Shown: one piece after another, positions 33,803-60,569 of the stretch
Numbering within the stretch: the first letter of the stretch is position 1
How the letters are laid out: every line of letters begins with the position of its first letter
From: Ochromonas danica
Taxonomy: Eukaryota; Sar; Chrysophyceae; Chromulinales; Chromulinaceae
Direction: 5' to 3'
DNA: 64,000 nucleotides
Assembly (NCBI GenBank): GCA_015146655.1
Contig: VKHL01000095.1
Location: 1-64,000 of the forward strand
Translations under genes and position numbers: made by a program
The notes under the pieces: model-generated
The model's input: the letters and a program-made list of their open reading frames with translations, nothing else
Database searches by the model: none
What the model was told of the DNA's origin: nothing

Positions 33803-36547
33803 TTACCATCCTAAGGCGATCAAAAGAACAGTGATAGGCACGACCAAGAAGTTCGTGCCGGCCAGGACGATGGTCATATACATGGTCATCCCCCAACGAG
33901 GTCGGTCATGAGTATGACCTCCACAGACAGATCTCCAGGATTCATCGTCCCCATTGTAGTTCGAGAAAACACATCGAGTCCAGTCAGAGAACGCATCGAT
34001 GAAATCCTCGCGTTGAACCACCGCAGACATGCGGTTGGCAATGTAAGGGATGTGGAGGGCGATGAACAAATAAATAACGAAATAGAAATGGAAGTGAGGA
34101 CCGAGCGGGAAGATGAGGTCCTGCGCCTTGGGCAGGGCGAGATTCTTTCCTGATTGAGAGAAAATGCCATCGACAGGCAAAGCAGTTTCGAGGTCGTTGG
34201 CTTCCCCATTCTCTCTTTCCTTGTCAGCTGCGAGCGAAACAACTCCTTCTTGCTCTTCTTGGTCCTTCTGCTTGCCTTCCTCTTGACTCTCATCTCCTCG
34301 GTTTTCATTGTCCACGCCAAGCACACGCTCATAGGCAACCATCTCCACCGAGGAGGTGATATTGGACAAGGCAGTGGTGATGGTATGAGAGCTTTCTTTA
34401 CGAACGCCGACAGCTTTGACAGACCCGTCGTCCTCCGAGGAATGTCTGGATATCTTCTCATAACCTTCTTCGTCATCTTCTCGCTTGGCGACCACCTCTT
34501 CCTCTTTCTCAAGCTGCTCCACTTTGCTCACTGGGAAGATGCACGCCAGAATGCGATAGGAAAACAAGATTCCGTAGTCGATGCAGCCCGCCACGAGCAA
34601 AGGCAAGGCCGTGAACTTCGCATCGAGTCCGCGATCGTCATAAGCTGGAGGCACGACATAGCACATTGGGGTTGTTCGACCAAAGCCATAGCCATCCTTG
34701 CTTGCCAAAACACAGACAAAAATAATAGGAATCAAAAGGATGAACGCTGCCTGGGATGCATAATAAGCAGGATGGCGTATGACTGAGAATTGCTGCTGGC
34801 CCACTAGCACATGATGAATGACCATGGTTAACATGGTAGCTCCAGTAGCGAGGCAGCAATAGACAAGGATGACTCCTTGAATGAGGCAGGGAGAGGGACC
34901 TTGATTTTGCAGATAGGGCACTGCATTGTCATAACAGTAGCGCCTCTGCTCAGAATAGGCCGTGCGGGATATCAAAGTCGTGAGGGAAGAAACGAAGGAG
35001 ATGCCGATCAAGACAAAGTTCAGGTAGAGTTTTTCGTAGTCTCTCGTGAAGATGACGCAGACCGCAATGCCCATCAATCCAGCCACGATGGACACCACTG
35101 GGATGATAATCTGCTTCTTCAACAGATTCTCCCATTCATCGTCAGACCAAACTGGAGCTCTACAAAGCAGAGCAGGTAGGTGAGTGAGCAAAGGCCGATT
35201 AAGAAGGAACACATTACATGGCACTTACTCGCATTGAACAGCACAGCCAGAGGCTCCAATCCAGTTGATGTTTTCATGGTCAGGATGCTCAGGAACAACG
35301 AATCCTGTGGGACAGTCCGTTGCGTAATTATACTCCGATGAGTTGTAGTAGGTATCTTCATAGGGCGAAGAAGGGAAAGAGATTACACCGAAAGTAGAGG
35401 TAGTCACCGTGGTCATCGTTTGGTTGGCAGTGGGGAATTGATAGACACCGGGCCTATTCTTCACAAAGGCGGTACAATTGGGGACCAGATTGGAGTTAGT
35501 GGTCGATGCAATGAGCTTGGCGCACTTGCTCTTGTAGTCCAAGCAGATGTCTCTATGAGGCAGCGAGGGCACATAGATGTAGAAGTTCAACGCGGCTGGT
35601 CTGCCAATTTGCAATTGATTGATTGCTAGAGTCGATCCAGACCAACTCAAAGCTGTGCGGAGCGTCACTTTTTGGGCAGGAGGCATATTTTGATAACAAA
35701 GGAACTTGCGCAAGGCAGTCATGCATTCATCTTCGAGAAATATGGGGATGGAAGCCGTGGAGCTGGCCAGCTTAGAGTACACCATCGACTGATAGACATG
35801 AGGCAATTGCAACACGGTGAAGTTGGTCGAAAGAGAAGTGCCCGGATTGATGAAGAGCGAATCCACGAAGCCACTGCAGAAGGAGTTGTCGCTAGCATGC
35901 AGATAGCTCTCCTTTTGTCCAGCGATTGTGACCAGATTGGGGGTATAACACTTGGTTTGGTTATTGGAAGCATCGAAGCGCGTCGGCTGATTGTTCGGAC
36001 CTGTTTTACCATTGCTGTAGTCATAGCGTTCGTTGCAGTTGGGCATGGTTCCAACAAAGCTGTAGAGCGTGTTCGCGCAATAGGTCTGGATTACAGTGCA
36101 CACGGAGGCACAAGGACGATAGAAGGGGAGAGGGTAGCTCTTGTTGACAGTCTCGTAGGGGTAGTAGTTGTAAGTTTGGGGGTCCGTCATGACGATGTTA
36201 TTGTAGCATTTCAAGTAGATCTGAGCGCAGGTCAAGGCGACGATGCTCTGGCTGCAGGAGGAAGGCAGAGTCATCACCAAAGTGTTGTTCAGCGCAGTGC
36301 GCGCTTTCTTGGCGAAGTAAGCGGGAGACAATCCATTGGGGACGAAGTAGGAATAGGTGACCACACCCGAGCATGGATTGGTCTGTCGCTCAGCAGCGGT
36401 GCCAGCTAATTGGTAGCACTGGCCGGGACTCACAACGTCGACATCAAAGGAATCCAAATCGACACCCAGGGAAATCATTCCCTCTTCTCCTCTCGCCACG
36501 AAGAAGAGAGAGAGCAGAAGCAAACACAAAGTTGGCAATAATAACAT
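33803..36547 (-). CDS. Frizzled/Smoothened-like seven-helix receptor with cysteine-rich ectodomain
   Basis: Two exons (36547-35229 and 35159-33803) join in phase for 891 residues. A signal peptide (MLLLPTLCLLLLSLFFVARG) leads into a 430-residue ectodomain. Its cysteine pattern (CAQIYLKCYNN, PFYRPCASVCTVIQTYC, PNC) matches the Frizzled cysteine-rich domain. A second Cys-rich block (CMTALRKFLCYQ, ICLDYKSKC) is present. Seven helices follow, from QIIIPVVSIVAGLMGIAVCV to VLAGTNFLVVPITVLLIAL. Between helices 5 and 6 lies an acidic insert of roughly 140 residues. Non-animal Frizzled-like receptors are known in Dictyostelium and related protists; no Wnt link should be assumed. The ATG at 36547 is the first in frame and gives the signal peptide. 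Confidence 0.85.
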
Positions 36548-37380
36548 GATATTTGGGCGGTAAAAGTTCAGGCGAATATTAATCAAATACGAGGAGCCGC
36601 GGCTGGATCTGATTGAGTTTTACTGTGAGGGGGAAGAAGAACAGAAAAGATTGGCTTCGCAGTGGAGAGGGAGAAGGCGAGCGAAGCAAGGGATGATGAC
36701 AGCAGGATGCTGGTGACAGATGGCCGCGAGGGGGTAATTGCCGAGTGACGAGGTCGAGAGAAATGGCTCGGAGAGATCTTTTTGTCTTCTTGAGGCGTGG
36801 AAAGTTCAAGGCGAGTTCAAGGCGGCCTTCTCTCCGAACCTCTCCTAGGCCACCCAGGGAAGTGCGAAAAGTCAAGATTTAACTCGAGTAACAGTCTGGG
36901 ACGAAATTTTCGCAGCCATTCGTTTGGCATCCACGTCATTAAAGTTCCGGTGTAACGGAACTATGCGATGACTCCGTTCGCCTCTTTCTGTTCTTGCATG
37001 TGGTCCCGACCAACGAATCTCAAGCGAGAGGGTCTCAAGCGACATCATCAGGGCAGAGATGTGCTGAGCACTGCATCAACGGGTTATTTGAGTGCATGGA
37101 ATCCATGGGAATCCCCTTTATTGCACCAAGTCGCTCTGTGACGGAAATTTGAAAAACAATTGCATCCAATCATGCACTTAAAATGCGAAACCGATTTCTT
37201 TATACCCATTTCGCCGAAGATGAAACGAGAGAATGTACTATAACGAGATGCTAATTAAGAGCAGAAGTGAAGGTTAATCAAATTGCATATGTTACAGAGG
37301 CATGTAGAGTATGTACAGAGAGCTCATCAAATAGAGCAGAAGCAGGCCATATGAGCATCCATCACCAAAGTGGAGGCGGT
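36548..37380. other. Non-coding stretch upstream of the receptor gene
   Basis: The 833-bp gap between the receptor start and the SET gene stop is the likely promoter of the former plus the 3' UTR of the latter. I see no coding pattern, RNA gene or tandem repeat. A duplicated phrase (AAGTTCAAGGCGAGTTCAAGGC) near 36801-36822 is minor. Confidence 0.5.
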
Positions 37381-38165: not shown

Positions 38166-41100
38166 ATGTCGCGCAATGCCTGGAAAAGCTTCAGCGAGGA
38201 GCTGGTCTTCTGGCGGGCGTATTGTGAGGCGGAGCGAAGCAAATACACCGCGCAGCACGGCGAGAAGAATCGCTTCCTGCACTTCTGCGCGCGGGTCATC
38301 GATAGCCTTGGCTGGTCGCTCTCCTCAGGGCCGAATATTCCCGCTGAGAGAGAGAGGCAGGAGGAGGGCGGCAGGGAAGCGAAGTTCCGTCTGCACTTCC
38401 TGCAGCGCACGGCGGCCATGGTGATGATTTGCCTGCTGCTCAACCTCGCGCTCTTGCTCTGCCTCACTTTGGGCCCACTTGTTGGCCGCCAGACGCGCTC
38501 GTGGTTCGTCACGATGGCCTCGCGCAACTCGTTCTCCTGGTACTGCGCCACGTGGCTGGTGCTCTGCGTGCTCTGCCTGCTCTTCTACGTGCTGCTCTTC
38601 CTCGACAAGAAGCACATCGTGCTATCAGCTCTGACAGGAGGTCATGATATAACGCAGCTACTGCAGGCGCTGGGTCGCATGGCGCTGATGAGTCGCGTGT
38701 TGGTCCTCCTCGTGGAGGTCGTCGCCGTCGCCGCGCAGGGGCCGCAGGAGGGGCGATGCATCGACATCAACTTGCTGAGCCCCTCCGATCACGCCTTCTT
38801 CTTTATTTTGGGCAGGATGGTCATCGATATCGTTCAGATGAGTGTCGTCGCTCTGGTGCCCATTCCTCGTGTGCACGTCTTCTGGCTGTGCCTCATCGAA
38901 GGAGGCGCGCAGACCATCCGCTTGATGACTTGCAAGGACCATATCGGGGCGAGTGGAGAAGTACATGAGCTCCTTGGCGCTATTTCCATCCTCATCCTGC
39001 CCACTTACTGCGTGGTTATCGCCGTGCCGGCCTATGCCATCCAGCAGGCCGTGCAGGCCTCTTTCGAGCACCAGCTCAGCCTTCGCGAGGCCTCTGAGCG
39101 AACCAAACAGCTCGTCAATCTGTTTTGTAGCGATCTGAAAGTGCCTGTTCAGCAGACGTTGCAGTTGTTGAAGGACACATCGAGAGAGGGCGCGGAGGAA
39201 GAAGAAGAGGAGGAAATCGTGCGCAAGAACGACTTGCAGGTGTTGGAGGGCAGCTTGACGACCATTGCGTCTATCGTCGACCACGTTGTCTTCCTTATGC
39301 GCATTCAAGAGGGTCGCTTTGTCTACCGCTGCTCTGACCTCGTGGACGCGAACAGTCTCGCAGAGGAAAGCCTTCGCGTCTTGCAGCAGAGCCTCGACGA
39401 AGACCTCCTCCTCCTCCTGCATGGCGGATCCGTCTCTCAACTCTTCGAACTTGATCTTCCCTCATCGCACTTTTATTCGCATCGCCATTGCCTTCTGATT
39501 CTCCTGCTGTTCAGCTTGAAAGCTGCTTACATGCGCTGGCGCTATTGCGCTTCGAGCGGTGAGTGACCCCACCCTGTCCTTTGCTCTGTGATCTGCTGCA
39601 AACTGATCGTGTCTTTCTCCCTCATGTGGCGAGCAGATGCTGACCGGTCGAGATTGTCTCTCACTCTGAGCTTCGACCACGAGGCGGAGGAAAAGTCTTC
39701 GACGATCAGCAGCCTCTTGGTGGGCACCATTTGCGTCGTCGATGCTCCTCGCGCTCCTGATGCGACGCTTGTGATGGGCGCTTCCAAAGGCAGAGACGCT
39801 CTTTTCTCGGGAAGAAACCAGAACGCCGCCACAGAGAAGACCTTCGAGCACGAGTCCGAGAAAGAGGCTCGCTACCATTACCAGACCAGCCTCATGTTCT
39901 GCTCCCACTTGTTGCGCGCCTGCCATGGCGCATTTGCTCATCATGAGCAAGATGGAACGATCATCTTCAGTCTTCCTATCCGCAAGGCAGAGAAGGAAGG
40001 CGACCATCTGGGAGGCAGTTGGCATGGAAACGATCGAATCGATGGCGCGAACACCATCAACATCATCTCTCAGAAACTGGAAGGCATGGTGGCACAAACC
40101 TTGTGCTTGTATTCTCCAGACCCTTCTCTGATGGAATTGACTGCACAGGCTCTGCGCTGCGTGATCGACGAGGAGCATTACGACAGCATCCCGCTGTTCG
40201 AGCAGCTCAACATGGCGGACATGCATGTGCGCCAAGTGGTCTTTGTCACCTCCTTATCCAGCTGCATGGAGTTGCGCAGGAAGAGCTACCGAGGTCTCAT
40301 TGTTTTGATGTCTGACCGCCTGGCTTACCTGGACGATCGAGACAAGATCTTCTACAGCTACGCGCTGTCCATCTCTCCGTCACCGCAACAATTGCAAGAG
40401 CTAGTCGTCTGGCTGAATGTCACAGTCCAGGAAATGCGGCAGGAAGAGGAGGAGCAGCAGGAGGATATGACCAAAAGCATGTACTCCAGCTTTCGCAATG
40501 GACCGCGAAGTGACGAGCGAAAGACGTCAAGAGACGGCACGCGGAGAGAGAGAGACGAGGAGGTCATGGATGTGAAGGTCTCCTTGCCTACCACGAGCAA
40601 AGGCCGCACATTGAAAGGCAATTCGTCTGAATGCACACCCTGCTGTTGGCTGCCGTGCATTCCGCAGTCAAGCGGGCTGAACTATTGGAGTTGGCGCATG
40701 CTCAACCCGTCTGGCGATGTCTTCCATCACACCAATCTCATCGACTTCTATGTATGCGTGGCTATTTTCGTGGAGTTCGCAGTGTATGCGGTGTATGGTT
40801 TCGACAACTTGACGAGTTTCGTGACCGTGCTGCCCAGCTTGATCTTCTTCGCCATGCGGAGGTTGGTGGTGGAGGACATCACGTCCCATTCCAAGGTCTT
40901 CTACTATGCCGTGCTCGTGACCAATTGCATCGTCTGCATCGCGCCATTCGCCTACAGCCTCACCTTCTACACGCTGATAACGCACCACCATCCGTTCAAG
41001 GCCGCGCCTCTGCCCAGTGGCGTGCACAACATGCGCGACTTCGTGCTGGCGACTTACGGCAGCCAAAATGCAGCAACAGGAGGGAGAGTGTTGATCAACT

Positions 41101-43175
41101 TCTTGTGGTCTTTCATGTTTGCGAAGGGTCACAGCGAGTTCCTCCTTTGGCCCTTCAGTCTTGTGGGTGCGTTCTCTCAAGTGGTCAGTCCGATCATCCT
41201 CATCGCCGCCATCTTCTCGACCTTCATGGGACGAGACATGTTCGTCTTCGTTCTCGTCTTCACCCTCTTGGGCCACGTCTATATCATCGCCTTGTTGGTG
41301 TGCACGGAGAATCTGCGGCGCCAAGAGTTTTTGGGGTTGAGACAAGTCTTTTTGTCGAGAGACTTCCTCGAGCGGTGCGTCTTCGCTTGTTGGAGAAACA
41401 CTTTCTACCCGCTGGCCTCGCTCACTCAGATACAAGAGCGCATGCTGCAAGAGATGACAGTGCGAGCGCTTGTGAAGGAAGAAGAGCAGCAGGCAGTGGC
41501 GGTGCAGGAGACGGTGGTGGTCTTGGAAGACGAGGTGGTGCAGCGTATGGAAGAGTTGGTCCTCAGCGTCACGCTGTCCAAGGAGCTGCTCTACGAGATG
41601 CAAATGAGTCTGCGGTCCCTCGCTGCGACAGGTCCTCCGCGAGAAGGACAATACCTTCTCGTGCAGAAGATGGAAATCATTTTGTTGCGCCCGCTGGTGG
41701 AGCGAGTGATCTCTCTCTTCATAAAAGAGGACCTGGTCGACGAGGAGGGACTGCCCGACGACAGTAAGACTGCCATTCGCTTCCACATGCAGCTTCACCC
41801 CTCGCTGCTGCTCATTCGCTGCGAGAGGAACTTGCTGGAGGCCATGCTCTGCAATGTCTGTAGAGCTGCTGTCGATCGAGTGAAGGACAGCGTGAGAAAG
41901 GGCAAGCAGAGGTACTTGCAGCAGCTTTCGTTGAGCCATGGCATGCGCACGAGCGAAGGAGAAGAAGGCGGGCAGCTCGGCTGGCATCGAGAGCTCGTGC
42001 ACGACATCCTCATTCGACTGGACCCTGAGCCTAACCAATCCTCCGTCAAGTTCAGCGACATTCATATGATGCAACTCTTCGTCTATGACACAGCTTTGGC
42101 GCTTCCGTCTTCTTCCTCCTCCTCCTCGCCTGTTGTTGTAGCTCATAGCCATCCTGGCAGTGTGAAGGAAGATTCCAATCTGTCTCAATCACAGCCTCAG
42201 CCTCAGCCAAGCTTCATGAAGGATATCTACGAGAGCTTCATGAAGCTGCACGGTGTGTCTCAAGCATGCTATCGGCTGGAGAGACTCGATCGTCGCGACT
42301 GCTTGTATCGCCATTGCCAACGCGTCGCTCTGCCCTACAAGCTCTGCCCCTCCACGCCCAAGGTGGCGGCGTTCTATCCTAACCTCGCCTCGCAACACCC
42401 AGTCGTCGTGCAGCCTTCGCATTCTTTCTATTACAATCGCTATCTGAAGGAGAAGCAGCAGATGGAAGGATTCATGCGATGGCGACGACCGAGCGGTCCG
42501 TCTTCCTCCTCGACTGCTGCAAGGCGTCCGACCAAGCCGAGGCAGAGGTTGACCATGCTCACCTACGAAGACTTCAAGAATGATCAAGCCAAACAACGAA
42601 AGCGGCGGTTGTTTCGCGAGCTGAATGACGCTTGCTCAAGCAGCGGGTGGAATTGCGAGTTTCTTTATCTTGAATTGGGGGCGATGCCCTCCCAAGCAGC
42701 TCTGCGCAGGTCATCGTGCATCATGGTTGACGAAGATCTCTCTACGGTCAATGGCTTCGCTGACCGTCCCAAGCAATACCTGCAGGAGTTGATACTCTAT
42801 CTGCGCTGCCACGACTTCTGGGGCATTGTGGCCTTTGTTGGTGATCGTCCCTTGTCAACCAACACAGAGGCTACAGCTGCTGAGCACGATCCGCTGAAGC
42901 TGGACAATGTGCGGGTGCAGGTAGCGTGTGAAATAGCTGGCTTTAGTGCCAATGCTGGAGTGATGTCGCCTGACATCTGCTTCGTGCATCCTGTGGGCGA
43001 GGCGGAGCTACGCGATCTCGCCACGCTCAGTCGAATGCGTTTGTTGCGGCTGGCGTTGCCTTCGGTCAGCGGCGCGCCAATCACTTCCCTGGCCATGGCA
43101 AAGCTCGTCATGGGCAGTGCGCCGTCGTCCGCGGGCACTTCGCGGCAGGGCAGTCGCACCGGCTTGACTTCTTAA
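38166..43175 (+). CDS. Tandem-module membrane protein: six helices, degenerate histidine kinase and receiver-like domain, twice
   Basis: Two exons (38166-39558, 39637-43175) join in phase for 1,643 residues. Residues 80-290 have about six membrane helices. A HisKA-like helix follows, with FCSDLKVPVQQTL near residue 319. This aligns to the kinase H-box HELRTPL with the phospho-acceptor His replaced by Ser. An ATPase-like N-box region is degenerate (SHRHCLLILLLFSLKAAYM). Residues about 620-720 resemble a receiver domain (VCLYSPDPSLMELTAQAL, VVFVTS) without the acidic phosphorylation site. The order then repeats: six helices at about 830-1020, a kinase-like coiled coil and ATPase-like part, and a receiver-like end (CIMVDEDLSTV, CHDFWGIVAFVGD, MSPDICFVHP). 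It is probably a signalling pseudoenzyme born from an internal duplication. Confidence 0.75.
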
Positions 43176-43525: not shown

Positions 43526-45663
43526 TTACCAGCAGGCTTGACTGTGAGCCCAAGCGAGGATCTTCTCGGCCACGAGCGCGGCGTCTTCGTCCATGGGGCA
43601 GTGGCCGAGGTCTAGCAGGTCGACCTGCACGCCGCGCTGCGATGTCACGCGAGGAATCTGCGAGAAGGCCGCAGCTCTAGCCGTGGCGTTGTTGAGAGGA
43701 TCGAGCACTCCTTGTGCCAGCAAAATAGGTCCCGTGTATTCATTGAATAAGAGATTCATCGTCTCCGGCGGAGGAAGCTTGCCTGAGAGAGAAACAACAG
43801 ATAGTCAACATGAACAACAGTCATAGTGGTAGTCATAGTGTCGTTACCTCCTGCGGCAAGCAGTCCCGGTGCGCCAGGGTCATAGGAGTCGCGCAGAATG
43901 TTCAAATGCAAAGCGCTCTCCGCGACGCGCTGCGGATGTTTCGCGTAGAGCCACTCGCAAGTTTGTCTCACTCGCGTCTGCAGCGCGAGGAAGATGCCCG
44001 CGCCCACGGCGGACAAGAGCGCAGGAGAGAGGCCGCGGTACTCCGGGAAGAGATCGTCTTGCTCGCGTTGCGGGCTGACAGCCGCCGTGGAGGAGGAGGA
44101 GGAGGGAGTGACTACCTCTCCTGAGGGGTTGAAGAGCACCAAGCCAGCGCAGTCGATCCTCTCCCCAGAGGTCCTTCTCACCTCTTCTCTCGAGAGGAAG
44201 GCAGCAGCTGAGGACGCCGTGTAGCCTCCGATGGAGTTGCCCATGAAGACGAAGCGATTGGCCGCGAAATCGTCTGCGAGAAGTCGCACGGCGTCCACGA
44301 CTTGATCGCGCCAGAGGTACTGGTTGAAGGAGAGCGGAGGCTTCTCCGACCAGCCGAAGCCCAGCGAGTCCAGCGCTGCCACTGCTTTGAATCGCCTGGA
44401 GGCTGCCAAGTGAGTGGCCAGCGCGCTGTACTGGTCCACACTGCCGCCAAAGCCGTGCACTAGCAGCGCCACGGGGCGATTGTCCTCCTCGCCACTGCCT
44501 CCGCCATCGCAGCGCATGAGGGCTAAGCGCTGCAGATATCCTCGCCAATACGAGAAGCTCACTCGCCATCCTTGCTCAGGCTTGACGGAGGAGGAGGAGG
44601 AGGAGGAGGAGGCGAGCAGTTGGTGCCAGTCCTTGCGCCGCGCTTCCTGCTCCAAGGGAGAGGGCGGGGACAGAGAGGAAAGTAAGGGTATCCGCCTCAG
44701 AAGAAGACTAAGAGAGTCGCGTGGCTGTTGGTGGTGGTGGAGGAGGAGGCGCTTCGATACCATTCCCTCGGCCACAAGCGGCGCGAGCAGTCCCGATAAG
44801 ACTTCCCCGCGGAAGAAATGCTTCGGCGCGAGTCGTCTGAGTGCCTGGCGGTGGTCTGCCGTGGTGGCCTGCGCGGCGATGTAGGCGGCGCTCTCTCTGG
44901 CAGTGAAGACTCGCTCGCCCTGCAGCAGGTAGCGCTGCACAAGGTCTAGGGCGAGGTCTTCTCCGCTCAGCGCCTTCTTCTTCTCCTCAGAGGAGGAGGA
45001 GGAGGAGGAGGAGGAGGCATAGTGTGCGAGGCCGGGTAGTGCGGGCAGGTAGTGCACGCCGTCGTGGCTCAGGCGCGGGGCGGAAGGCATTCGCTCTGTG
45101 GGGTGGAAGTCGCGGTAGACCCACTCCCATGGCTCACTAGGAGGAGGAGGAGGAGGAGGAGGGAAGAGGCAGTCCGAGAGCGTCACTGCCGAGCAGTTCT
45201 TCTGGGCCAACACGGCGACAAGCGCGGCGGTCAACGAGGCCATCGGCTCGGCGGGAGAGGCCAGGAAGACCACCTCTGGAGAGGCGCCCACCTCCTGCTG
45301 GATGGCGTCCAGTAGCGCTCCCAGCGAAGACTGCGAGGCTTCTAGAAGCGCTCCGCCCGCTTGGCGCACTTTGCGAGCCAACGAGAGGCGCACCTCCGCA
45401 GAGACCGCCTCGCACGGCCACACCACTGGGATCACTCCTCCTCCTCCTCCTGCTCCAGTGTCTTCGAGGTAGTTCAAGCAGGGATGGTCGTGGATCCTCA
45501 GCCCTCCTGGAGAGAACAGAACCACAGACACACGCTGCTTGGACAGACTCGAGGACGAGCCAGCTGTTGAGAGAAGAGACAGGAAGAGCAGAGCGAAGGG
45601 TGATAACAAGAAGAGGAAGGGGAAGGGGAAGGCCCTCTGTCTCGACATCATCGTCTTCGTCAT
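43526..45663 (-). CDS. Photolyase-N-terminal-like / alpha-beta hydrolase fusion protein
   Basis: Two exons (45663-43848 and 43782-43526) join in phase for 690 residues. An N-terminal hydrophobic leader (FPFLFLLSPFALLFLSLL) could be a signal peptide or the first part of a bipartite plastid leader. Residues 45-180 resemble the photolyase antenna-binding domain (RVSVVLFSPGGLRIHDHPCL). The rest of photolyase, including FAD-binding parts, is missing. From about residue 400 there is an alpha/beta hydrolase: oxyanion motif LLVHGFGGSVDQY, nucleophile elbow GNSIGG, acid region LAQGVLDPL and histidine in DLGHCPMDE. A similar fusion is known in plants and algae (the Arabidopsis At4g25290 type), where it is thought to be plastid-linked. 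The substrate is unknown. Confidence 0.83.
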
Positions 45664-45750
45664 CACTCGATGAAATCTTCGTCATCTCCCCCATTCTGAC
45701 AAGACAGATGGCATAGTCTTCATATTCTCTCACTGCACATCACTCTGCAA

Positions 45751-57733: not shown

Positions 57734-57897
57734 GTTAAGAACAATCAATCACTCTGTGCTACAAGGTACAAGCACTGCAGGATGTTGCTATTAAGTTAAG
57801 ATAAGAAAAACAGTTTCTGTGTGTTTTCAGTGTTTTTGTGAAGTTAAAGCTGGGAGCCAGTCAGAGAGAGAGAGGCAGCAAGACAAAAGACAGACAA
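57734..57897. promoter_or_regulatory. Shared divergent promoter region with TTAAGTTAA
   Basis: Only 164 bp separate the start codons of FkbM copy B (minus) and the BOP1 gene (plus). TTAAGTTAA (57791-57799), the reverse complement of the motif found upstream of several other genes in the window, lies near its centre-left. Confidence 0.5.
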
Positions 57898-60569
57898 ATG
57901 GTGACCAAGTCCAAGTCCATGGCCAAGGCCAAGAGCCTCCCTGACAGCAAGGCGGCACCACCTGCTAGCAAGAAAGACACTGGCAAGAAAGGTGCCAGCA
58001 AGCCAACTCAAGCCAAGCCAATCGATCAACGCGAGATCCGTCGCATTGTTCGACACGCTGCGAACGAAGAGGAGGATGACGATGAGGACGATGAGGATGA
58101 CGATGAGGATGAGGAGGAGGAGGATGAGGATGAGGAAGAAGAGGACAATGACTTCGAGCAGCAGTCTTCTTCTTCTGAAGACGACAGCGCTGAGAACGAA
58201 GAAGACCAGGACGATGACAATGAGGATGATGATGAGGACGATGATGATGAGAAGGACGAAGAGCGCCGCCTCAAGTCTCTCGAGCAAGCAGCTCGCAAGT
58301 GGCAAGGCGCTACGCAGGCCACCACCTCCTCCTCCTCCCAGCAACAACAGCAGCTGCAACAGCAACAACAACAGGCAGTGGCAAAGTACTTGCATGTGGA
58401 CGATCTCTCCTCCGATGACGAAGAGGCAGGAAACACCATCGGACGCGTCCCTTTGCACTGGTACGATGCCTACGACCACATCGGATACACTCTGGATGGA
58501 CAAAAGCTCGTGAAGCGTAAGGGACCCGATCGCATGGACCTCGCCATCGACTATCACAGCCAGGGAGCAGCTGCTGCGGCCAAGAAAGTCTACGACATGT
58601 ACAATGACCGCGAAGTGGTTCTCTCCGAGAGAGACTTGGAGATCATTCGTCGCATACAAAACAATGCATTCGCTCATCCAGAATTCGAGGCCTACTCGGA
58701 CTATGTGGACTACTTCACGAGCGAGAAGGAGGTCATGCCTCTGCAGGCGTTGCCCTTGCGCAAGTCTTCTTTCCAGCCTTCTCGCTGGGAGATGTTGCGT
58801 GTGAAGCAGATCATGGCGGCCATGAAGAACGGCACCTACCAGACCTACCAGGAGCGACTGGCTGCGAAGAAGAAGGAGAGGGAAGGGAAGAAAGAAGGCG
58901 AAGGGACCTACCTCATGTGGCCTGAGAACGATCACGAGGAGGAGAACGAGTCTCGTCGCTTGCGCTATCACCTCCCAGCGCCTAAGATGCCCCTCCCAGG
59001 CCATGCTGAGTCATACAATCCCCCCGAGGAATACCTCTTCGACGACGAGGAGACGAAGGCTTGGCAGGAAGCTGACCCTGAGGATCGCAAGATCTCTGTC
59101 CTTCCTCATCGCTACGACTCTTTGCGTCATGTGCCAGCCTATCACAACCTCGTGAAAGAGCGCTACGAGCGCTGCCTCGACCTCTACCTCTGCCCGCGTC
59201 GTCTCAAGAAGAGGCTGAACATCGACCCCGCCTCTTTGCTGCCCAAGCTTCCCTCCCCGCAGAGCTTGAAGCCTTTCCCCAACGCGTTGGCTTTGCAGTT
59301 TTTGGGCCATCAGAAGGCTGTGCGCTGCTTGGCCATCTCTCCCGATGGACAGTACTTGGCCTCCGGCGACGAGGTTGGAAGAGTTAAACTCTGGGAAGTC
59401 GCCACTGCCTTCTGTCGGAACACTTGGCAGTTCAATGGAGCGATCACGGCGGTGGCATGGAATCCGCTCTTCAACCACGGCCTCTTGGCTGTGGCGGTGG
59501 AAAAGCGTGTCGTGCTCATCACAACTGGAACGACAGACAAAGATGGCTGTGAGCTGACCGAGGGATTGTTGGCGGCGGTGTTGGATAAGGCAGGAGGAGG
59601 TGGAGGCGGTGATCAGGACGATGACGATGATGATGTTAAGAGAGGAGGTATCGCAGAGTCAGACGAGGAGAGCGACGGTAATGCCGAAGAGGGCGAAGAC
59701 GATGATGAGAGTGAAGGAGGGAAGGCGTCTAGCAAGAGCAAGACTGCCTCTTTACAATGGCACATTCACCCGAAGGAGGCCTCTACCTTCATCATCGCAA
59801 AGGATTGCTATGTTGGACCCAGGGCTGACCTGGTCTTCACTCAGCCAGTCGTCCGCATCGCATGGCACCACAAGGGCGACTATCTCGTCACTGTAACCAC
59901 TCCTTCCTCCTCTGCTTCTTCTGCCTCAGCTATTGCGGTCCATCAGATCAGCAAGGCCAAGTCTCAATACCCTTTCTCCAAGTCACCGGGCAGAGTGCAA
60001 ACTGTCGTCTTCCATCCCTCTCTCCCTTGCCTCATCGTCGTTACCCAGCAGCACATCAAGATCTTTCATCTCGTCCAGCAGAAGCTCATCAAGAAGCTGC
60101 AGAGTAACTGCAAGTGGCTGTCTTCTGTGGACGTGCACAGTAGCGGGGATCACATCTTGGCAGGCAGCTACGATCGCCGTGTGGTGTGGTTCGATTTGGA
60201 CCTCTCTTCCACGCCCTACAAGACTTTGAAGTTTCACGAGAAGGCTGTGAGATCAGTAACCTTCCACAGGTAAGTCTTATCCTGTCCCTGCATTGTGTTA
60301 AATGACTGTCTGATCTGATCTGGTTTGATCTGCTGCACAGGAAATACCCTCTCTTTGCCTCATGTTCAGACGATGGATCTGTGCATGTCTTCCATGGAAT
60401 GGTCTACAACGATCTAATGCGCAACCCTCTCCTTGTCCCTCTCAAAGTGCTGAAGGAACACGGAGTGCGAGGAGAGTTGGGGGTGACTTCCATTGCCTTC
60501 CATCCTCGTCAGCCTTGGCTCTTCTCTGCAGGAGCTGATGGCGTTATCAACCTCTACCAAGACATTTAG
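57898..60569 (+). CDS. BOP1: Ribosome biogenesis protein BOP1/Erb1
   Basis: Two exons (57898-60269, 60341-60569) join in phase for 866 residues. A basic N-terminus and a long Asp/Glu tract (about residues 60-145) precede the BOP1NT domain: [65 protein letters not shown] and [12 protein letters not shown]. The C-terminal half is a WD40 propeller ([20 protein letters not shown] through [15 protein letters not shown]). BOP1/Erb1 acts in the nucleolus with PES1 and WDR12 in 27S pre-rRNA processing and 60S assembly. An acidic insert of about 50 residues interrupts the propeller ([15 protein letters not shown]). The upstream frame is open but has no earlier ATG. Confidence 0.96.

Follow-up and report, generated by a model that had tools for sequence, protein, structure and literature searches.

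Pseudo-histidine-kinases and doubled histidine kinases are each already known. DivL of Caulobacter carries tyrosine in place of the phospho-acceptor histidine, works in vivo without kinase activity, binds a response regulator, senses a phosphorylated regulator and tunes another kinase (PMC4211667), and the dual (hybrid) histidine kinases of fungi, such as Tco2 of Cryptococcus, have two kinase units per chain (PMC4965123, PMC5285503). Receiver domains also depart from the canonical pattern, with about 10% of those in bacteria and about 3% of those in fungi being without a conserved residue (PMC8510515). Among the top matches listed in a search of open-licence papers, none described a family of membrane-bound pseudo-hybrid-kinases in doubled form, and such a report may exist elsewhere. 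The gene described here lies in the first 64,000 nucleotides of contig C95 (VKHL01000095.1, C95:1-64000, hereafter the window) from the 31.2 Mb, 337-contig assembly of the alga Ochromonas danica. Its 1,643-residue product is laid out as two successive halves, A and B, in each of which a set of membrane helices is followed by kinase-like and receiver-like stretches.

Our preferred explanation, to which we give about an even chance, is that the gene encodes a membrane pseudo-hybrid-histidine-kinase with two kinase-like units per chain, which would serve the genome's active membrane hybrid kinases as an adaptor or decoy without any catalysis of its own. The initial annotation had proposed a doubled membrane pseudo-histidine-kinase, and we find this picture well supported for half A and moderately so for half B, with a conserved layout and a ratio of non-synonymous to synonymous substitution rates (dN/dS) below 1 in the family.

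Protein searches of the genome's own contigs recovered eight full-length copies including the window gene (1,643-1,820 residues), the other seven being located on C219 (two copies), C175, C95 and C210 (one each) and C5 (two). They form four subfamilies: the window gene alone, the C219/C175 copies (L038-L040), the C95/C210 copies (L042 and L043) and the C5 pair (L044 and L045). Both halves are present, in order, in all eight. The search for the double layout in relatives, which had been recommended as a check, was thus run on the alga's own genome and returned seven further full-length copies that share it.

Histidine-kinase descent of half A

For reference we aligned 88 kinase sequences, eight from the genome itself and 80 from bacterial loci, and compared them by HHalign with a family profile of half A over the DHp and CA domains. 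The E-value was 1.5e-6 with L044 as master sequence and 5e-4 with the window protein as master, and none of 40 column shuffles reached the score for either; against the eight own-genome kinases instead of the 88 sequences, the match was weak. No control came up to the chain of kinase motifs in half A, neither among 300 local shuffles nor among 150 block permutations. Profile and motif comparison thus show that half A descends from a histidine kinase. When the 88 sequences were turned into a hidden Markov model (HMM), half A of L044 and L045 filled the four top rows of the scan, above 800 shuffled sequences. An HMM of the DHp and CA domains built from the genome's own kinases put half A of L045 first and in the right register (score 3.8, where the highest of 800 shuffled sequences scored 2.3), and own-genome HMMs of the membrane, receiver and full-length parts ranked shuffled sequences at the top.

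The heptad SDLKVPV had been read as a relic of the H-box with serine at the phospho-acceptor site, and this register is borne out by HHalign, which aligns CSDLKVP with SHEIRTP and sets Ser322 opposite the histidine of the kinases (feature coordinates are given in Table 1). When the H-box was taken from active kinases of the same genome, the best of 1,042 windows was at residue 317; with the matrix from the 88 kinases, the same place falls outside the top three of 312. The acceptor position is serine in six and lysine in two of the eight copies, and the H-box proline is invariant. Further along, the first asparagine of the N-box is leucine or phenylalanine in every copy, the G2 register is without glycines, and the motif scan gave no convincing place for G1 in half A.

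Membrane sets and the relation between the halves

Hydropathy confirms the two hydrophobic sets that had been predicted but yields five helices in each set of the window protein rather than the six per set proposed. In the seven paralogs the same analysis counts 4-5 helices for set A and 5-6 for set B, and five active kinases have 5-6; six per set is possible. Six pairings compared set A, with the H-box included, against active membrane kinases: for the window protein versus L143 none of 50 shuffles reached the score, and for the remaining pairings 1, 1, 3, 18 and 21 of 50 did. Mean pairwise identity across the family is 19% for set B versus 33% for set A.

A self-alignment of the protein had been suggested as a check on internal duplication, and the halves fail to align with each other. 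BLASTP of half A against half B gave a best E-value of 0.044, and profiles of the cytosolic parts beat all 40 shuffles in just one of six pairings, a match that position arithmetic places on the Ser/Pro-rich linker. Profiles of the membrane parts did beat all 50 shuffles in three pairings, but with helices 1-2 of set A opposite helices 1-3 of set B, and we discounted this match as evidence of duplication on account of its register. Internal duplication is therefore not borne out by the halves, and neighbouring active kinase genes could have fused instead. Since HATPase_c stretches lie 4-7 kb apart on the same strand on C33, C53 and C132, a fusion of neighbouring genes would explain the chain just as well as duplication. 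Likewise, as the halves do not align, their shared ancestry rests solely on the separate resemblance of each to active kinases. If a dual kinase is taken to be a chain with two related kinase units, the family keeps that layout in eight copies, with the halves unaligned.

In 12-helix adenylyl cyclases the two cytosolic halves pair with one another. By comparison, the halves of this protein might pair within the chain as an intramolecular pseudo-dimer receptor, needing no kinase partner and passing the signal on by way of the receiver-like domains. The obligate intramolecular dimer that the initial annotation had suggested is a hypothesis, the two single-sequence structure predictions being too poor to judge it. 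Such pairing would suit the presence of both halves in all eight copies, the similar dN/dS of the halves in the two paralog pairs where both vary, and the position of H-box relics past both membrane sets. Set against this are the failure of the halves to align and two structure predictions too poor to use, and we keep the pseudo-dimer receptor as a tentative alternative only.

Kinase-like features of half B

The start motif of three active kinases scores best at residue 813 and second best at residue 4, which are the starts of the two halves, and 17 of 600 shuffled queries place both in their top two. With the H-box of three active kinases, the best window is at 317 and the third best at 1046, each just past a membrane set; two of 600 shuffled queries put both places in the top three. 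In the register used, the histidine site of half B is arginine in one copy, lysine in five and glutamate in two, and the Pro-Leu pair is invariant. The N-box, G1 and F-box motifs are top-ranked at residues 1193, 1278 and 1328, in the canonical order, where the letters of G1 and the F-box, and the N-box without its place, had been named before the motifs were scored. The first G1 glycine is kept only in the three C219/C175 copies and the second is lost in all eight. On these sequence features, half B is probably kinase-derived.

Receiver-like domains

The assignment of receiver domains in both halves is only suggestive from sequence. The core of domain A is the most conserved long block of the protein, with 27 of its 64 columns identical across four representatives. 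Its receiver profile match was reached by 0-1 of 30 shuffles for the cut-out domain and by 3 and 1 of 40 for the whole half. Asp659 is invariant in the eight copies and is placed at the phosphorylation site by HHalign and by the motif scan (second best of 330), a Thr/Ser register being possible too by eye; the conserved serine is kept, and lysine is absent at the LSIS place in all copies.

For domain B, the profile match was not significant, being reached by 1-9 of 30 shuffles for the domain and by 6 and 13 of 40 for the whole half, and two low-confidence AlphaFold models show an alternation of helices and strands. In a scan for the beta-3 motif, the place with Asp1496 ranks second among 383 windows, and six of the eight copies keep the residue. 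The acidic pair is found in four copies, the threonine in none, and the lysine site is histidine in four and glycine or a gap in the other four. A receiver HMM made from the 88-sequence set ranked shuffled sequences on top.

The initial annotation had seen no obvious phosphorylated aspartate in either domain, which is not fully borne out: in domain B, Asp1496 is in register as a candidate, and in domain A the register decides between Asp659 and Thr/Ser. Its wider statement that the catalytic residues are lost stands for the acceptor histidine of both halves and for the ATP site of half A; half B keeps two polar ATP-site residues together with its candidate phospho-aspartate.

Evidence against kinase descent and a possible unrelated origin of half B

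A number of results weigh against a doubled pseudokinase. Pfam gave no kinase match for the halves of the window protein or for members of seven of the eight copies, where the same scan names five of five active kinases of the genome as a positive control; NCBIfam, run on four proteins, named neither half; and a search of PDB sequences with three profiles returned no kinase. In half A, the motif chain placed the H motif at 305 and the N motif at 393, versus the proposed 316 and 437, and the window's own half A lies outside the 14 best rows of the 88-sequence HMM scan. For half B, HHalign reached E-values of 0.05-0.12, with the best alignments in the N-box register and scores matched by 0-4 of 30-40 shuffles, and the motif chain, in which the H motif came to lie at 1107, was equalled by 29 of 300 and 16 of 150 controls. 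Set B matched no active-kinase profile in nine pairings. Two single-sequence AlphaFold predictions, one of residues 1040-1643 and one of receiver-like domain B, had mean predicted local distance difference test scores of 36.8 and 40.9. Half B may also still bind nucleotide, because the N-box asparagine and an aspartate or glutamate at G1 are kept. As for the receiver-like domains, the chain test was reached by 46 of 300 and 13 of 150 controls for domain A and by 58 of 300 and 26 of 150 for domain B, and Foldseek with the model of domain B gave nothing at E 0.001, the 50 rows listed containing no receiver.

The frequency with which controls reached the half-B chain, the lack of a match between its membrane part and any active kinase, and the unaligned halves would all fit a chain formed by fusion of different proteins, in which half A is a pseudokinase and half B a membrane module of other origin that resembles kinases in its motifs by chance. 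This origin for half B appears unlikely, given that its N-box, G1 and F-box are top-ranked and in order, that few shuffled queries reproduce the H-box pair (2/600) or the start-motif pair (17/600), and that the N-box asparagine is invariant and the acidic G1 residue kept.

Divergence and selection in the family

In exon 1 the C219/C175 copies share 46-48% identity with the window gene, and for exon 2 the figure is about 40-46%. Within subfamilies, likeness is 97-99.6% (in DNA) for the C219/C175 copies, 95% for the C95/C210 copies and 91-93% for the C5 pair. The near-identical C219/C175 copies (up to 99.6%) may be alleles or assembly duplicates, and for that reason the number of independent loci is perhaps less than eight. 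We estimated dN/dS by the Nei-Gojobori method for pairs of paralogs, dS between the window gene and its paralogs being saturated or nearly so. The ratio is 0.28 for L038/L039, 0.32 for L042/L043 and 0.43 for L044/L045; a check for purifying selection had been called for, and these three recent pairs all fall below 1. Taken per half, the ratios are 0.27-0.44, excepting half A of L038/L039 (two changes only), and are alike for the two halves in the two pairs where both vary. A fourth pair, L038/L040, belongs with the contrary results above, at 0.45 overall and 0.63 in half B, from 16 changes in all.

In L042/L043 and L044/L045 (C95, C210 and C5), divergence is patchy, with tracts of zero change beside tracts of high dS (about 1 in L042/L043), which looks like gene conversion or segment exchange inside the family. 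Two family profiles found no relatives in the viral contigs that were searched.

At 65.7-69.7 kb and 107.9-108.8 kb, contig C95 also carries fragments of family members that are broken and rearranged. In L041 and L046 (C95:68754-69668 and 107927-108757), non-adjacent pieces stand side by side, for example residues 1-26, 138-373 and 903-947 of the L042 protein, and these fragments resemble rearranged pseudogene remains. Their presence on the contig of the window gene is what one would expect of a decaying family in which the catalytic losses are simple loss of function. That the family as a whole is turning into pseudogenes is nevertheless very improbable and largely contradicted by the eight intact frames of 1,643-1,820 codons, by the dN/dS of 0.28-0.43 in three pairs and by motifs that are invariant across four diverged subfamilies.

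Gene model and neighbouring sequence

Two open frames of the same phase, 38166-39566 and 39588-43175, are joined by a GT-AG intron, and its removal bears out both the extent of the gene and the chain length initially given. Three paralogs (L038-L040) have a 278-nt intron at the same place and in the same phase, and in the other four the reading frame runs across the site without one (frames of 1,782-1,820 codons). These four intronless copies rule out an artefact of a missing intron, and the existence of eight copies, together with a window sequence free of N, rules out an artefact of assembly.

Table 1. Positions of the gene parts and candidate motifs in the window
Feature	Position	Strand	Remarks
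Exon 1	38166..39558	+	Residues 1-464 and first base of codon 465; open frame and splice site
Membrane set A	38415..39026	+	Residues 84-287; five hydrophobic helices (hydropathy)
H-box relic A, LVNLFCSDLKVPVQQTLQ	39111..39164	+	Ser322 (39129-39131) at phospho-acceptor site
Second DHp helix relic A, IVDHVVFLMRIQEGRF	39273..39320	+	Best of 322 windows for kinase motif; chain test picks same place
N-box relic A	39474..39536	+	Second best of 315 windows; HHalign register; chain test picked 393 instead
Intron	39559..39636	+	78 nt, GTGAGT...CAG, phase 1; in-frame stop within
Exon 2	39637..43175	+	Residues 465-1643 and stop; open frame; homologous stretches in seven paralogs
G2 box and CA end relic A	39876..39983	+	Best of 320 and of 323 windows; chain test picks same place
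Receiver-like domain A	40095..40448	+	Weak as receiver; core 40188-40379
Half-B start motif, LNYWSWRMLNPSGDVFHHTN	40668..40739	+	Ranks first of 1,042 windows with the N-terminal motif from three active kinases
Membrane set B	40737..41300	+	Residues 832-1019; five hydrophobic helices (hydropathy); poorly conserved
H-box relic B, CVFACWRNTFYPLASLTQIQ	41376..41435	+	Arg1051 (41394-41396) at His site; third best of 1,042 windows
N-box relic B	41820..41882	+	Best of 365 windows; Asn1204 kept in 8/8 copies
G1 relic B, LFVYDTALAL	42075..42104	+	Best of 396 windows; Asp1282 is Asp in six and Glu in two of eight copies
F-box relic B, IYESFMKLH	42225..42251	+	Best of 411 windows, narrow margin
Receiver-like domain B	42549..43043	+	Candidate phospho-Asp1496 (42729-42731)

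Elsewhere in the window, 35225-36586 on the reverse strand has a weak match to the Frizzled cysteine-rich domain (Pfam Fz, E 4.2e-6, under the curated cut-off), and 43756-45666, also on the reverse strand, encodes an alpha/beta hydrolase, whose N-terminus resembles the start of a photolyase (a likeness judged by eye only). The forward-strand gene at 57838-60273 is of the BOP1 type of ribosome-biogenesis proteins (BOP1NT, E 6e-92), with WD40 repeats. The genome at large looks like that of a photosynthetic eukaryote, with spliced genes and 47 chlorophyll-a/b-binding stretches, some of which are pieces of one gene, and which a cyanobacterial control matches too.

Proposed role and comparison with known systems

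The genome has at least 38 HATPase_c stretches; of the 13 frames that we read, one (L008) looks like gyrase B. Membrane hybrid kinases with histidine, G1, G2 and receiver aspartate, as read by eye, are present, and there is one HPt match. In the active kinases L004, L005, L047-L051, L142 and L143, the N-box is ENVLCLLSNAVKYS or near to it, with cysteine at the first canonical asparagine and an asparagine three residues earlier. By its sequence, such a cysteine-bearing N-box appears unusual in otherwise intact kinases.

Since the acceptor histidine is absent in both halves, neither half should be able to start a phosphorelay, which would leave binding. The genes are intact although the proteins lack key catalytic residues, and so the proteins are probably signalling partners and not enzymes. 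By analogy with known dead kinases, we infer an adaptor or decoy mechanism in which the DHp helices would pair half to half or with those of active membrane hybrid kinases in the alga, receiver-like domain A could provide a docking surface in its highly conserved core, and the membrane sets would determine the conformation on offer. The output would be to hold, tune or titrate the active kinases or a phosphotransfer protein, with no phosphorylation by the protein itself; DivL, which tunes a kinase in Caulobacter, would be a precedent for such tuning by a dead kinase.

There is next to no chance that the protein is a class III nucleotide cyclase with 12 helices, or some other two-set membrane protein that is no relative of kinases, for although the alternation of membrane sets and domains in such cyclases resembles the layout seen here, no cyclase family appears in Pfam rows to E 5 for the window protein and six further copies (all but L040; HMMER filters drop most rows above about 0.1), and the match to histidine kinases at E 1.5e-6 contradicts it for half A. 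Going beyond the adaptor or decoy, one can picture lineage-specific two-set receptors made of two fused hybrid kinases, both dead, in which a built-in pseudo-dimer responds to an outside signal and, by way of a receiver-like core that cannot be phosphorylated, controls the alga's active kinases, half B perhaps binding nucleotide as a switch; this fuller scheme we consider doubtful. A conserved family of this kind beside dozens of active kinases in one alga would offer a natural test of whether, in eukaryotes, dead histidine kinases do their work by pairing with live ones.

Closest at hand for comparison are the alga's own active membrane hybrid kinases (for example L048, L049, L050, L142 and L143), which, like the family, have an N-terminal set of 5-6 helices with the H-box just after it, then a CA domain and, where the frame extends that far, a receiver. 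Unlike the family, they consist of a single unit, have the histidine, G1, G2 and receiver aspartate, and are recognised by Pfam. The fungal dual histidine kinases are soluble and catalytically competent. They share with the family the two units per chain, whereas the family is membrane-bound and dead. Atypical or pseudo-receivers are missing conserved residues as the receiver-like domains here are, but the latter sit in a doubled pseudokinase and their assignment is suggestive only. DivL is like the family in the replacement of its acceptor histidine and unlike it in being a single unit that keeps its other kinase boxes, where the family has lost the G1 and G2 glycines and doubled the chain.

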